Shown: one piece after another, positions 520 to 61,012 of the stretch
How the letters are laid out: every line of letters starts with the position of its first letter
Numbering within the stretch: the first letter of the stretch is position 1
Source of the DNA: Flavobacteriaceae bacterium PS02337
GTDB lineage: Bacteria; Bacteroidota; Bacteroidia; Flavobacteriales; Flavobacteriaceae
Assembly (NCBI GenBank): GCA_029959285.1
Contig: JASCOE010000012.1
Coordinates: 120,570-184,569, forward strand
Reading direction: 5' to 3'
Length of the DNA: 64,000 nucleotides
Made by a program: the position numbers and the translations under genes
The notes under the pieces: generated by a model
What the model saw: only the letters and a program-made list of their open reading frames with translations
Database searches by the model: none
What the model was told of the DNA's origin: nothing

Positions 520-690
520 TTTTAGATTTCAGATTTTAGATTGATGATTAACGATTTTTGATTTAAGATTATTTGAATTTGGAATTTATTTATTGGAATT
601 TAATTATAGATAAAGCTTTGTGAACTTAGCGTTTTGTAAACACAAACAACATAAAAAAACCTTGCGCCCTTTGCGGTTAAAAAACAAGAC
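520..690. repeat. Spacer with drifting word repeats (proA-proB)
   Basis: The first 60 bases are variations on TTAGATTT/AGATTTCAG (tttagatttcagattttaga), the last 60 on cttagcg/ctttgcgg (ccttgcgccctttgcggtt). It belongs to the class of word-built intergenic sequence seen repeatedly in this window, although the two arms here do not pair convincingly with each other. The second part ends 6 bases before proB's ATG region begins. Confidence 0.45.
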
Positions 691-1452
691 ATGGCAAAAA
701 AAAGGATTTTATTAAAAATAGGAAGTAACACTTTAACCAAAGAAACCAATCATATTTCTCGGGGAAAGATTGAAGATCTCGGAATACAGATTGCAGCTTT
801 AAACGATGAATATGAGTTTATCATCGTGAGTTCAGGAGCAATTGCGGCAGCAAAGCAATTTGTAAAACTGGATAATCAAGATAAAGATGTTTTTGTAAAA
901 CAGGCATTAGCTTCAATCGGACAGCCTCATTTAATGCGGATTTACAATGAAAATTTCAAAGATTTAGGGCTAAATACCTCGCAGTGTTTGCTTTCTTATT
1001 CTGATTTCGAAAAAGAGCAGACCAAAAAGAATATTGTAAATACAATTAATGTCTTAGTTAAAAACAATTACATTCCGATTATCAATGAAAATGATACCGT
1101 TGCTACAGATGAAATTCGGTTTGGAGATAATGATAAATTAGCGGCTTTAACAGCGGTTCTTTTAAATGTTGATATTCTGATAATTGCAACCAATACAAAC
1201 GGAATTTATACAAAAGATTCCATTCACGATGAAAATCCGGAAACGATAAAATTGGTAAATGATTTAAAATCGCTCGAAAAAGAAATCGGCGAATCAAAAT
1301 CATCACACGGAACAGGAGGAATGCAATCCAAAATAGAAGCAGTCGCAATTTCAAAAGCAGCCAATATAGAAACCTGGATTGTCAATGGATTGAATGATAA
1401 TTTTATTTTAAAGGCGTTGAAGGAAGAGATTCCGTTTACGAAAATCGTTTAA
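691..1452 (+). CDS. proB: Glutamate 5-kinase, short form without PUA domain
   Basis: ProB phosphorylates L-glutamate with ATP to gamma-glutamyl phosphate, the first and usually feedback-controlled step of proline synthesis. The 253-residue protein is a single amino-acid-kinase domain: LKIGSNTLT at the N-terminus (phosphate loop), VSSGAIAAA near residue 47, the INENDTVATDEIRFGDND loop near 130-150 and GTGGMQSKI near 208. The C-terminal PUA domain of the 367-residue E. coli enzyme is absent. Short forms are known in several phyla. It follows proA, and the arginine genes follow downstream, so glutamate-derived proline and arginine synthesis lie together. ATG at 691 is the natural start. Confidence 0.95.
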   Translation: MAKKRILLKIGSNTLTKETNHISRGKIEDLGIQIAALNDEYEFIIVSSGAIAAAKQFVKLDNQDKDVFVKQALASIGQPHLMRIYNENFKDLGLNTSQCLLSYSDFEKEQTKKNIVNTINVLVKNNYIPIINENDTVATDEIRFGDNDKLAALTAVLLNVDILIIATNTNGIYTKDSIHDENPETIKLVNDLKSLEKEIGESKSSHGTGGMQSKIEAVAISKAANIETWIVNGLNDNFILKALKEEIPFTKIV

Positions 1453-1453
1453 C

Positions 1454-1572
1454 TGTTTAATCGTTAATTCGGTTAATCGATTAGAAAATGAACATAAAAA
1501 AGCAAAAGGATAAAGTTAGATTTGTTTAAGCAGCAAAACAATTAAACAAATCAACGATTAACCGATTAAACA
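1454..1572. repeat. Facing-arm word repeat, word ttaatcg
   Basis: The left arm at about 1454-1480 (tgtttaatcgttaattcggt...) and the right arm at about 1541-1572 (...aacgattaaccgattaaaca) are imperfect reverse complements, each built from the word ttaatcg/cgattaa. The right arm ends 9 bases before argF's ATG. Transcribed, it could form a long stem with a loop of about 60 nt. Confidence 0.7.
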
Positions 1573-1580
1573 AAAAAACA

Positions 1581-2534
1581 ATGAACTATATTTCAATAAA
1601 AGACATCAACTCATTATCAAAATGGGTAAAACAAGCGATAAAAATCAAAAAGAATCCGCTTAAAAATCAAAGTTTAGGAAAGAATAAAACTTTGGGAATG
1701 TTATTCTTCAATCCAAGTTTAAGAACGCGTTTGAGTACTCAAAAAGCGGCTATAAACTTAGGAATGAACGTGATGGTAATGAATTTTACTAACGAAGGAT
1801 GGACGTTAGAATTCGAAGACGGAGCGGTAATGAATTCTGGTGCTTCAGAACATATTAAAGAAGCGGCAGAAGTAGTTTCTCAATATTGTGATATTATCGC
1901 AATTCGTGCTTTTGCAGGTTTAGAAAACAAAGAAAAAGATTATCAAGAAACTGTAATTTCAGGGTTTTTGAAATACGCTACAGTGCCAATAGTAAATATG
2001 GAAAGTGCTATTCGTCATCCGTTGCAGTCATTAGCAGATGCGATTACAATGGAAGAATTCAAGCCTAGACATAAAGAAAAACCAAAAGTGGTTCTTTCTT
2101 GGGCTCCACATCCAAAAGCGTTGCCACAGGCAGTTGCTAATTCATTCGTAGAAATGATGCAAATGCAAAAAGATATGGATTTTGTAATCACGCATCCAGA
2201 AGGTTATGAATTAAGTCCAGAAATCACAAAAGACTGTAAAGTCGAATACAATCAAGATAAAGCTTTTGAAAATGCCGATTTCGTTTACGTTAAAAACTGG
2301 AGTAATTTCAACGATTACGGAAAAGTAACTAACAGCGATTCAAATTGGACTGTTACAGCAGAGAAAATGGCTTTAACCAATAATGGAAAGTTCATGCACT
2401 GTCTTCCAGTTCGTCGTAACGTAATTGTAAGTGATGAAGTTTTAGACGGAGAAAATTCAATCGTAATCGAACAAGCGAATAACAGAACGTATTCAGCACA
2501 ATTAGTTTTACAAAAAATTCTTAAAAAAATATAG
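1581..2534 (+). CDS. argF': N-acyl-ornithine carbamoyltransferase (acetyl- or succinyl-ornithine)
   Basis: This enzyme transfers the carbamoyl group from carbamoyl phosphate to an ornithine derivative in arginine synthesis. The carbamoyl-phosphate motif is SLRTR (residues 46-50, inside FNPSLRTRLST), and the second-substrate region has HCLPVRRN at 273-280. The long loop after FTNEGWTLEFEDGAVM and the ASEHIKEAA segment around residue 90 set it apart from ordinary ornithine transcarbamoylases. They match the Bacteroidota/Xanthomonas group acting on N-succinyl- or N-acetyl-ornithine. The argE-like deacylase two genes downstream fits carbamoylation before deacylation. Which acyl group is used cannot be settled by eye. 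Length (317) is normal for the group. Confidence 0.9.
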   Translation: MNYISIKDINSLSKWVKQAIKIKKNPLKNQSLGKNKTLGMLFFNPSLRTRLSTQKAAINLGMNVMVMNFTNEGWTLEFEDGAVMNSGASEHIKEAAEVVSQYCDIIAIRAFAGLENKEKDYQETVISGFLKYATVPIVNMESAIRHPLQSLADAITMEEFKPRHKEKPKVVLSWAPHPKALPQAVANSFVEMMQMQKDMDFVITHPEGYELSPEITKDCKVEYNQDKAFENADFVYVKNWSNFNDYGKVTNSDSNWTVTAEKMALTNNGKFMHCLPVRRNVIVSDEVLDGENSIVIEQANNRTYSAQLVLQKILKKI

Positions 2535-2540
2535 TTTTTT

Positions 2541-2627
2541 GAGGTGCTAAGGTTCTAAGTTTCTAAGATGCTAAGAAACGATGAGCAAAAGCCTTAGTCC
2601 CTTAATACCTTAGCAACTTAGAACCTC
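2541..2627. repeat. Facing-arm word repeat abutting the argB start, word ttctaag
   Basis: The left arm at 2541-2575 (gaggtgctaaggttctaag...) and the right arm at 2592-2627 (...accttagcaacttagaacctc) are about 35-nt imperfect reverse complements. Both are made of variants of the word ctaag/cttag. The right arm's last base is immediately before argB's ATG at 2628, so any RNA hairpin would include the ribosome-loading region. No separate Shine-Dalgarno-like site is seen. Confidence 0.8.
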
Positions 2628-59602: not shown

Positions 59603-59819
59603 GATACTAAGTTGCTAAGGTTCTAAGATGCTAAGAAATTGGAATCTTTAACTTTAGCAACTTTAAAAAATTAAATAAAATAGACGCTGAGGTTTAAATT
59701 CAAAGAAAAAAACTTAGAACCTTAGCGCCTTAGAATCTAAAAAAAAAAAACAGCTGCCGAGGTTTAAGATAAAGTAAAGAAAACTTAGAACCTTAGTATC
59801 TCAGCACCTTAGAACCTTA
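59601..59819. repeat. Word-repeat element with duplicated right arm, word ttctaag / cttagaacc
   Basis: The left arm at 59601-59637 (gttgctaaggttctaagatg) faces two right arms at 59709-59738 (aaacttagaaccttagcgcc) and 59780-59819 (aaacttagaaccttagtatc). The two right arms, with their preceding ggtttaa-containing 30 bp, form a 70-bp imperfect tandem duplication (59680-59738 and 59750-59810). The second ends 8 bp before the aldo-keto reductase ATG. Confidence 0.8.
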
Positions 59820-59826
59820 AAAAAAA

Positions 59827-60810
59827 ATGCAAACACGTAAACTAGGAAATAGTGGTTTAGAAGTCTCAGCATTGGGACTTGGCTGCATGGGAATGAGTTT
59901 TGGTTATGGACCAGCTCATGACAAAAATGAAATGATAAGTTTGTTGCGTTCGGCTTACGAAAAAGGAATAACCTTTTTTGATACAGCTGAATGTTACGGA
60001 CCATTTTTGAATGAAGAATTATTAGGAGAGGCTTTAGCACCTTTTCGTGATAAAGTTGTTATTGCAACGAAATTCGGTTTTTTAGAAGGCGATTCTAAAA
60101 AGGGATTAGACAGCCGTCCGGAATGGATTAGAAAAAGCATTGAAGGTTCATTAAAAAGATTAAACACAGATGTTATTGATTTGTATTATCAGCATCGTGT
60201 AGATCCAAATGTGCCAATTGAAGACGTTGCAGGAACGATTAAAGATTTAATTCAAGAAGGAAAAGTAAAACACTTTGGACTTTCAGAAGCTGGAGCAGAA
60301 AGCATTCGTCGCGCGCACGCAGTTCAACCTGTTACAGCATTGCAAAGCGAATATTCACTTTGGTGGAGAACTCCAGAAGGAGAAATTTTTCCGGTATTAG
60401 AAGAATTAGGAATTGGATTTGTGCCTTTTAGTCCGTTGGGAAGAGGTTTTCTAACTGCTAAAATAGATGAAAATACACAATTTGACAGTACAGATTTTAG
60501 AAATACGTTGCCTCGTTTTACACCAGAAGCCAGAAAAGTAAATCAAGCGTTAGTTGATTTATTGTCTAAAATCGCAACCGAAAAAGGAGCAACAAACGCT
60601 CAAATTGCTTTAGCATGGATTTTAGCTCAAAAGCCTTGGATCGCACCGATACCAGGAACGACAAAATTACATCGTTTAGAAGAAAATCTTGGAGCAATCA
60701 ATTTAGAACTTTCCGCAAAAGATCTCGAAGAAATTGAAATCGCGGCTTCAAAAATAAAAATTGAAGGTTCAAGATATCCAGAGCATTTGCAAAAGACAGT
60801 TGGGAAATAA
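59827..60810 (+). CDS. Aldo-keto reductase
   Basis: The 327-residue NADPH-dependent reductase has the AKR barrel: [29 protein letters not shown], the catalytic tetrad in [11 protein letters not shown] (Asp, Tyr), VIATKFGF (Lys) and [16 protein letters not shown] (His). The coenzyme-binding [14 protein letters not shown] and [15 protein letters not shown] follow. It resembles the AKR13/YakC subgroup. It is the last gene of the AraC-cupin-ADH-AKR run; a word-repeat hairpin and then a strong terminator follow. Confidence 0.93.
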
Positions 60811-60886
60811 GATACTAATATTCTGAGATACTAAGATGCTAAGAAAAAAAACTTAGAACCTCAGAACCTTAGTCACTTAGTATCTT
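60808..60886. repeat. Facing-arm word repeat, word ctaag / cttag
   Basis: The left arm at 60808-60845 (aagatactaatattctgaga...) faces the right arm at 60850-60886 (...ccttagtcacttagtatctt). They are imperfect reverse complements with almost no loop. It overlaps the end of the AKR gene by a few bases. Confidence 0.75.
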
Positions 60887-60898
60887 TATAAAAAAAAA

Positions 60899-60939
60899 CA
60901 AAACCCCTCAAGCAATTCAACTCTTGAGGGGTTTTTTAG
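60899..60939. terminator. Strong bidirectional terminator
   Basis: The stem aaacccctcaag / cttgaggggttt has a 10-nt loop with A and T flanks. It lies between the + AKR gene and the - DUF4142 gene. Confidence 0.92.
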
Positions 60940-60940
60940 C

Positions 60941-61012
60941 AAAGATTTGAGGTTCTTAGATTTCAATTTCTTAGAACCTTAGAATCTCATAATCTTAGCG
61001 TCTAAAAATAAA
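60941..61012. repeat. Word repeat, word ttcttag / cttagaacc
   Basis: The left part aaagatttgaggttcttaga and right part ttcttagaaccttagaatct, with aatcttagcg, are partly reverse complementary. It directly follows the terminator and precedes the end of the DUF4142 gene. Confidence 0.6.

Follow-up and report, generated by a model that had tools for sequence, protein, structure and literature searches.

What are the word-built inverted repeats that fill intergenic spacers of Flavobacteriaceae bacterium PS02337, and what forms and exchanges them? In a 64,000-nt stretch of contig JASCOE010000012.1 (positions 120,570 to 184,569; hereafter the window), spacers host two facing arms, each made of a short word repeated in tandem with drift. 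Those of one group of words, in which the arms flank a putative nuclease gene, look like an unnamed kind of small mobile element. We propose, in a reading that we regard as evenly poised between right and wrong, that they are ends-and-cargo units, small mobile or converting elements, and that the product of the GxxExxY gene is the partner nuclease of the class with CRCRRAK and ATTAAG words. The link between GxxExxY genes and word arms is new. Among the literature matches listed, no title or abstract start describes facing word-built arms or a connection between GxxExxY and repeats, subscription papers being outside the scope of the search, and in the text portions retrieved the name GxxExxY is rare and occurs in passages unrelated to its function.

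GxxExxY genes reside between word arms

Between an AA_kinase gene and argF (the kinase-argF slot), the longer form of the spacer encodes a GxxExxY protein (PF13366 in Pfam, TIGR04256 in NCBIfam) of about 129 residues, and PF13366 is present in 60 of 118 sampled Bacteroidota genomes. PS02337 has four full copies (L089-L092) and one weak partial match. By eye, all four sit among facing words, and the words differ. Flanks were scored for the 82 best-scoring copies, a set that is not random, includes 17 copies from the kinase-argF slot and leaves out three located at contig edges; these copies come from many genomes, the 1009 control genes from PS02337 alone. The arm score reached at least the 95th percentile of the controls in 54 of the 82 copies and at least the 99th in 32, 17 of the latter being orthologues at the kinase-argF site. 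Copies from other Bacteroidota and from plasmids are weaker: out of 35, the 95th percentile is reached by 17 and the 99th by 4.

The words flanking GxxExxY genes are polarised. Around the 82 copies, CRCRRAK words read inward 178 times and outward 40 times upstream of the gene, and 202 and 28 times, respectively, downstream. No such polarity is found around the 1009 control genes (258, 225, 263 and 258 words), and at least two inward words on both sides mark 44 of 82 GxxExxY copies against 7 of 1009 controls. With the kinase-argF copies removed, the four counts, given as listed and unlabelled, are 138, 37, 27 and 149 for 65 copies; the 33 copies from other Bacteroidota and plasmids give, likewise unlabelled, 70, 33, 19 and 68.

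Word and protein are associated as well. Leaving aside the kinase-argF copies, proteins of the YG class (LG[YHN]GFLE or YNxLG motifs) are accompanied by AT-ending words in 19 cases and by AG-ending words in one, those of the PG class (all others, mostly LGPGLLES) by AG-ending words in 37 cases and by AT-ending words in three; the comparison left 5 ties. The word state needs 4 changes on the protein tree, against 17.5 in shuffles, among them a nested return to AT words in a small group in which V-Y replaces V-H. Sorted by this residue and by word, 84 copies fall into H/AG (46), H/AT (5), Y/AG (1) and Y/AT (19), with 13 unassigned.

Residues D77, E87, K89 and Q101 are invariant in 32 aligned GxxExxY proteins (of 75 in hand), and we take them as the catalytic D, E-x-K and Q. 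No solved relative was found by sequence, the single weak profile match having E=0.41. SSO0001, DrdV and LHK-Exo, which appeared among many acetyltransferases in a structure search, were treated as uninformative.

Upstream of trpS, a GxxExxY gene lies in one orientation in PS02337 (G000) and in the relative G006, and in the opposite orientation in the relative G015. Protein identity at this site is 91% between G000 and G006 and 82% between G000 and G015, out of step with the identity of trpS DNA (85 and 90%), which suggests either an inversion or a separate arrival. CTTTGCG words stand immediately before trpS in five more genomes (G005, G008, G010, G029 and G031), even where GxxExxY is missing from that site. 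The TTTGC in these words resembles the -7 promoter box of Bacteroidetes, and for this likeness the arms may double as promoters. Two adjacent PF13366 pairs, possible tandem duplicates, were noticed in other genomes (G150:C4:68680 and 69420; G088:C1:1593378 and 1593855).

Elements devoid of the gene share arms with those which carry it. Matches to the arms of L089, L090 and L091, 29-52 nt long and 86-97% identical, lie elsewhere in the portion of the genome covered (on contigs C11 and C44 and in the window) and in five extra stretches. On C11, C44 and the window, 16 of 20 distinct match places, which include the arms of the copies themselves, are intergenic. Several are gene-less facing elements (C11:374936, C11:544565 and, by eye, L290, L291 and L294), and the ATTAAG element at C11:544565 has arms in common with the GxxExxY copy that is flanked by ATTAAG words. 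Word-built inverted repeats were found in none of 239 spacers in three genomes lacking PF13366 (0.5 in shuffles), in 7 of 219 in three genomes hosting it (0.5 in shuffles) and in 52 of 701 in PS02337 (3.5 in shuffles), a comparison uncontrolled for kinship and genome size.

Slots change their words

Orthologous spacers were compared in 80 Flavobacterium loci around the arginine genes, whose names are inferred from Pfam. In the argF-argB spacer (79 sequences, the window included), both arms are made of CTAAG in 29 and of CAAAG in 30, and mixed elements are absent; the remaining 20 spacers host nothing, a single array or something else. On a tree built from the two genes that follow (3613 and 4860), the word state requires 23 changes, where shuffles require 36.6; the branches with good support imply a minimum of 12 gains or losses for CAAAG and of 16 for CTAAG. 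Loops change together with the word in the eight pairs shown. Within 100 nt upstream, flank identity is 0.825 in pairs with the same word and 0.820 in pairs with different words. For the two word states, the tree of the nearest 100+100 nt requires 12 changes and those of 400 nt of either flank 15-16, so that short imported tracts may take part in the swaps. A CTAAG allele shared by 11 species is 95% identical among them, the flanking coding DNA being 92% identical.

CTAAG and CAAAG arms at this slot are as a rule made of four units of 8 nt each. The other core occurs in 15 of 465 units (59 sequences), always at offsets 39-45, hence outside the four-unit arm. Variable triplets of left and right arms agree at a frequency of 0.457, which is the level obtained with arms of other species (0.460+-0.013), and A.C mismatches at core position 3 are close to expectation (6 observed and 5.7 expected in 17 CTAAG representatives, 33 and 28.6 in 25 CAAAG ones). 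Hence at argF-argB, the one slot at which covariation was tested, one arm is not a recent copy of the other, and pairing at the tested letters does not hold the two together; what is kept is the common word. CRCRRAK arms can be identical, as at 56586-56701.

Other slots turn over in the same loci. Kinds were assigned by our own patterns, and some assignments look wrong by eye. The kinase-argF slot (75 genomes) hosts AATTAG elements in 20, GxxExxY elements or their remnants in 19, TTAATCG in 15, CACGAATT in 4, nothing in 4 and other sequences in 13; the 58 genomes with a recognised kind require 27 changes on the tree. At the convergent slot 9960-10168, 43 of 61 genomes host seven kinds, needing 21 changes, and 18 something else; neither figure was compared with shuffles. 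Elements may be nested. By eye, the CACGAATT element resides within a CACAGATT element in seven convergent-slot genomes, L062 has what is left of a GxxExxY element inside a TTAATCG one, and at the convergent slot the arms of the ATGARTT lineage surround an older hairpin resembling a terminator. The number of tandem units differs between species. In the convergent spacers of L061 and L009 one arm has grown to about ten or more near-identical heptamers (ATCTCAC, TGTGAAA), which gives the impression of a recent tandem expansion. Elsewhere in these 80 loci words are few or lacking, with none in 66 of 66 genomes at 10169/10764 and in 38 of 39 at 4860/6224.

Further sequences turned up in or near these slots. 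The 16-nt perfect palindrome CCCGATAGCTATCGGG sits in or beside word arms, seemingly inserted at variable letters, in the spacer 2628/3613 of L015, L019, L024, L031, L038 and L043. In L062 and L065 a copy of the Flavo-1 RNA immediately precedes argH, a place taken in the window by a CACGAATT element. The argE-argH spacer of L056 contains a 332-aa open reading frame (ORF), presumably RhuM-like, and a few other species have other ORFs in these slots.

The closer relative G015 was compared with PS02337 over 400 kb, where 180 of 731 spacers could be paired at a mean flank identity of 89.5%. In 128 pairs neither genome has a recognised word; of the other 52, 29 carry the same word and 6 a different one, 11 have a word in PS02337 only and 6 in G015 only. 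Independently of word patterns, 151 spacers could be scored. Median spacer identity is 0.90 for ordinary spacers (84), 0.75 where only an inverted repeat is present (33), 0.77 where word-built repeats occur in both genomes (12) and 0.59 where they occur in one (22). Identity below 0.55, roughly the shuffled level, was scored in 6, 5, 0 and 10 spacers of these four groups. The word is completely changed at C11:596835 and C11:357908, where flanks are 97.3 and 95.7% identical, and the ATTAAG element at C11:544565, adjoining an intact terminator, is missing from G015 at 94% flank identity.

Word families in the genome

Unless otherwise stated, genome figures refer to 1.26 Mb of the 5.70 Mb, namely the window together with 800 kb from contig C11 and 400 kb from C44. 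Gene calls outside the window are simple longest-ORF calls, and word-family patterns were picked after inspecting the data. In 747 spacers of at least 40 nt, 97 ungapped inverted repeats of all kinds, word-built or not, score at least 40, against 1.0 per shuffle set, and 169 score at least 32, against 13.3. An arm has a tandem score of at least 16 in 71 of the 207 inverted repeats scoring at least 30; the inverted repeats of the genome include dimers resembling repetitive extragenic palindromes (REPs) besides word elements. Words form dispersed families. Three CTAAG units at period 8, with at most one mismatch, match the whole genome 280 times, the same pattern read backwards, taken as control, twice. 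Exact three-unit CTAAG matches occur in 12 of 60 relatives, all within one genus code.

Array orientation was counted for ten word families in about 3.3 Mb, made up of PS02337, the 80 orthologous Flavobacterium loci, which are not independent, and three relatives. Pairs less than 260 nt apart are facing in 151 cases and back to back in none, those 260-1600 nt apart facing in 10 cases and back to back in 7. Between the 10 distant facing pairs, the recurring cargo is GxxExxY only, apart from argB, which in two species is simply enclosed by arms of neighbouring slots. Many arms are solitary. CTRAG arrays have a facing partner within 260 nt in 18 of 49 cases and are solo in 31, and in 41 of 48 arrays the CTRAG word is directed away from the closest ORF. 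In classes of 1 to 12 elements, the median distance to the nearer ORF is 0-6 nt for CTRAG, TTAATCG, GTTTCAR, CAGT, TTTAGAT and ATGARTT elements, 26 nt for CRCRRAK elements and 24-69 nt for REP-like kinds. Strong inverted repeats, terminators included, occur in 74 of 115 convergent spacers and, less often, in 32 of 140 divergent ones.

Elements of the window

The 46 window spacers exceeding 30 nt, truncated to 450 nt where longer, were scanned for inverted repeats (IRs), taking the best of 10 dinucleotide shuffles as reference. Thirteen beat it by a margin above 6 points. Word-built repeats account for nine (spacers at 1453, 2535, 4723, 9960, 39611, 46465, 56585, 59603 and 60811), plain hairpins or REP-like palindromes for the other four (6141, 22934, 17044 and 48497). 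The word-built spacer at 36011 scores exactly 6 above its best shuffle, thus at the limit. By eye, single or mixed arms lie in about six more spacers (520-690, 3405-3612, 25693-25801, 26396-26619, 51596-51721 and 58323-58549), for a total, partly by eye, of about 16.

A TTAATCG element (1457..1561; IR 32, shuffle maximum 20) lies between the AA_kinase gene (691-1452) and the argF-like gene (1581-2534), in a slot filled in other species by AATTAG, CACGAATT or GxxExxY elements. The argF-argB spacer has a CTRAG element of 4 + 4 units of 8 nt (2547..2621), with CTAAG or CAAAG in the orthologues. A CACGAATT element (4735..4843; IR 50, maximum 32; RNA z -8.55) separates an M20 peptidase gene from an argH-like gene. 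An ATGARTT element (9964..10168; IR 102, maximum 36), with a bidirectional terminator-like hairpin in its loop, fills a convergent spacer in which other species host several other word families. Farther on are a CTRAG element of 3 + 3 units (36011..36084; IR 34, maximum 28), a second CACGAATT element (39778..39861; IR 60, maximum 38; RNA z -12.98), an ATTAAG element (46540..46652; IR 42, maximum 32) and a CGCAAAG element with identical 23-nt arms (56586..56701; IR 46, maximum 26), the word of which is that of the GxxExxY copies L089 and L091. A solo CTRAG array of 4 units (58333..58361, plus strand) stands 10 nt past a stop codon, and two CTRAG elements are each made of three arrays, one forward and two reverse (59603..59819, IR 38, maximum 30; 60811..60998, IR 62, maximum 32). 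Nine window elements are predicted to fold strongly as RNA (z -3.5 to -13).

An earlier note on this DNA had described such elements from the letters alone, and the coordinates it quoted contain the words it named. Its figure of at least 15 word-built spacers is reached, at about 15, only by counting one-armed and mixed cases; two-armed elements are ten, nine clear and one at the limit. The element placed between convergent genes at 9965-10170 is indeed there. Closeness of the arms to ORF ends holds for CTRAG and most AT-rich words, and less so for CRCRRAK, which is no nearer to ORFs than one REP kind (24 nt).

Two other repeats were noticed in the window. A REP-like inverted repeat, AAGCTTCGGAGC..., at 17102-17260 (52, shuffle maximum 34) is not word-built, and a Flavo-1 RNA (RF01705, 74.6 bits) lies at 14704-14781 on the minus strand; a search of the window, L062 and L065 against Rfam returned nothing but Flavo-1.

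Discussion

The word-armed element may be viewed as a unit of ends and cargo, with facing arms around anything from a short loop to a gene, each arm consisting of a 7-10 nt word that is read inward and repeated about 2-5 times. For words of the CRCRRAK class (CGCAAAG, CACAGAG, CACGAAT, CGCGGAT and others) and of the ATTAAG class, the full form carries a GxxExxY gene as its cargo, most copies being gene-less. GxxExxY, a putative small PD-(D/E)XK-type nuclease, would act on the arrays in which the elements end, or on identical words present at a target, and would thereby spread or convert elements, serving gene-less copies in trans. Selection against hits in genes would leave elements in intergenic slots, many pressed to ORF ends. 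The occupant of a slot could be replaced by an element of another word, and replacement would keep the array uniform in word, with variable letters drifting freely in each arm. CTAAG, CAAAG, ATGARTT and similar words may follow the same rules; what ties them to the GxxExxY class is architecture, and no partner gene was found for them.

Several results weigh against this interpretation. The H/Y residue changed independently only twice on the protein tree, and with so few changes co-inheritance of gene and arms, without recognition, suffices to explain the association of word and protein; H/Y is accordingly kept as a specificity residue by way of hypothesis only. The core order of GxxExxY (H-H-E-E-E-H-E-E) comes from a fold model of low confidence (predicted local distance difference test, pLDDT, 66.8), and a structure search with this model gave no match at E<=0.001. 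GxxExxY proteins of the same genome are at most 61% identical (20 copies from four genomes, not every copy of each), implying no recent duplication among those 20. The arms of L092 have no second copy in the searched genome part, and none of nine CTRAG elements has a whole-element copy (80% coverage, 80% identity) in the 1.26 Mb. The survey of ten array families found no recurrent cargo between CTAAG-type arms. By eye, neither a target-site duplication nor an excision footprint is evident at the few sites inspected (C11:544565, L080/L083), and most paired slots with a recognised word keep it between PS02337 and G015. Word counts of whole genomes appeared at first to follow PF13366 (p=4e-5); significance was lost (p=0.28 in Flavobacterium, 0.12 outside) by subtracting 4 words per copy, and these counts were dropped as support.

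Other processes could account for the same elements. Arms could pair in mRNA to protect ends, separate cistrons or terminate transcription; pairing would suffice, and words could thus turn over while slots stay filled, as they do. Strong folding, the vicinity of stop and start codons and the scarcity of strong inverted repeats in divergent spacers, terminators included, agree with functional hairpins of this sort, and since the elements fold well a role as RNA is possible. Yet covariation is absent at the variable letters and at core position 3 of argF-argB, one lineage of the convergent slot has, by eye, a terminator of its own within the loop, most CTRAG arrays lack a facing partner within 260 nt, and the limited set of shared words and a nuclease gene that separates the arms likewise speak against it. 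We hold this explanation to be unlikely, and the pairing-selected RNA suggested in the earlier note does not find support at argF-argB, strong as the folding is. The same note considered that one arm is copied onto the other. A mutational process in which hairpin-primed template switching and slippage build and copy arms would fit the variable unit number, the one-arm expansions of L009 and L061 and the near-perfect match of some arms; nonetheless left and right variable letters at argF-argB are alike only at chance level, words are common to many loci and species, and loops change with the word, which makes such a process very unlikely.

Interspecies homologous recombination could carry old spacer alleles among elements that are ancient and static. 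The CTAAG allele shared by 11 species, closer in sequence than the coding DNA at its sides, and the tree of the nearest flanks speak for it; against it, flank identity hardly differs between same-word and different-word pairs within 100 nt, swaps occur where flanks are 95.7-97.3% identical, and the origin of the words is left unexplained. We consider recombination alone somewhat unlikely. Arrays could also be binding sites of host DNA- or RNA-binding regulators, placed near gene ends by selection. An invariant word with free triplets, the period of 8, the usual four units per arm in both families and the orientation of CTRAG words away from the nearest ORF would suit a binding site, but whole-word switching within single slots, with neighbouring species carrying different words at the same arginine-gene slot, makes regulators a decidedly unlikely cause.

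In the light of these comparisons, the structural family of many words and the turnover described in the earlier note are real, orthologous spacers swapping the word in both arms together, and strong inverted repeats are far above the level of shuffled spacers. At argF-argB the arms mutate independently in their variable letters, an outcome that the note itself had named as refuting its reading, and not in the word, the same in both. Facing arms describe the ten window elements and leave out many solo arrays. The idea that structure, and not sequence, is the shared property is not supported, words being dispersed families and arms of three GxxExxY copies recurring in the genome.

The elements recall known systems. 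Miniature inverted-repeat transposable elements (MITEs) are gene-less derivatives of insertion sequences sharing arms with a gene-bearing form, and the same holds for the arms of three of the four PS02337 GxxExxY copies; in contrast to MITEs, no DDE or HUH transposase lies between the arms, which are word arrays. Homing endonucleases are small stand-alone nuclease genes in compact spacers, for which co-variation of enzyme and site is expected; here no intron or intein was seen, and the sites are arrays forming inverted ends. GxxExxY shares with PD-(D/E)XK nucleases the invariant D and E-x-K (32 sequences) and, in the low-confidence model, the core order. Flavo-1 RNA is likewise a dispersed, structured intergenic repeat and shares one slot with the elements (L062, L065), but matches one conserved covariance model and is not a word array. 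By eye, some element loops hold a separate hairpin akin to intrinsic terminators.

The REPIN-RAYT system (PMC3116915) is made of small intergenic inverted-repeat elements, with gene-less copies and a partner enzyme gene alongside, in several sequence groups each with its own enzyme. The word elements resemble it in all these traits, and also in the facing repeats that form an intergenic hairpin; they differ in the tandem words of the arms and in the enzyme, of PD-(D/E)XK type and not a Y1 transposase. PS02337 has four Y1 (PF01797, RAYT-like) genes (L330-L333, on contigs C33, C11, C2 and C11), each next to its own REP-like palindrome (TTCCnTAGGAA, CTGGACTGAAGTCCAG, CCTCCAG or CCCACGG), with 0-1 CRCRRAK words on each strand of a flank and without any CTRAG pair. 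As these genes adjoin other palindromes, word elements are not members of the REPIN-RAYT system. A palindrome of the TTCCGTAGGAA kind, associated with Y1 genes, is also found at 48683-48845 of the window. The TAACTGA heptamers of Beggiatoaceae, Cyanobacteria and Bacteroidetes (PMC4679880) are tandem in spacers, mostly near start codons, although one set in Bacteroidetes follows a stop codon; in Bacteroidetes some of the spacers, which relatives lack, contain further heptamers as well, and host RNA-binding proteins were proposed as binders. Short tandem words in spacers are common to both cases. TAACTGA is, however, one word, in nearly all cases directly repeated and without facing arms, whereas many words, facing arms and an internal nuclease gene are found here.

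It is conceivable, although we lean against so specific a picture, that GxxExxY and word arrays make up an undescribed class of bacterial mobile element. The nuclease would then recognise a 7-nt word repeated at both ends, its specificity would evolve with the protein (for example from V-H to V-Y as words go from AG to AT), spacers would be exchangeable slots taken in turn by elements of different words, and CTAAG-type words would be read by partners yet to be found. The residence of GxxExxY genes within word-built inverted elements, and a word class that tracks the protein subfamily, suggest a testable role for the widespread PF13366 family, and provide a possible explanation for a kind of intergenic DNA that has been puzzling. 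Word swaps at 90-97% flank identity indicate that certain spacers within operons are exchanged whole, a point of importance to regulation and to comparative genomics.

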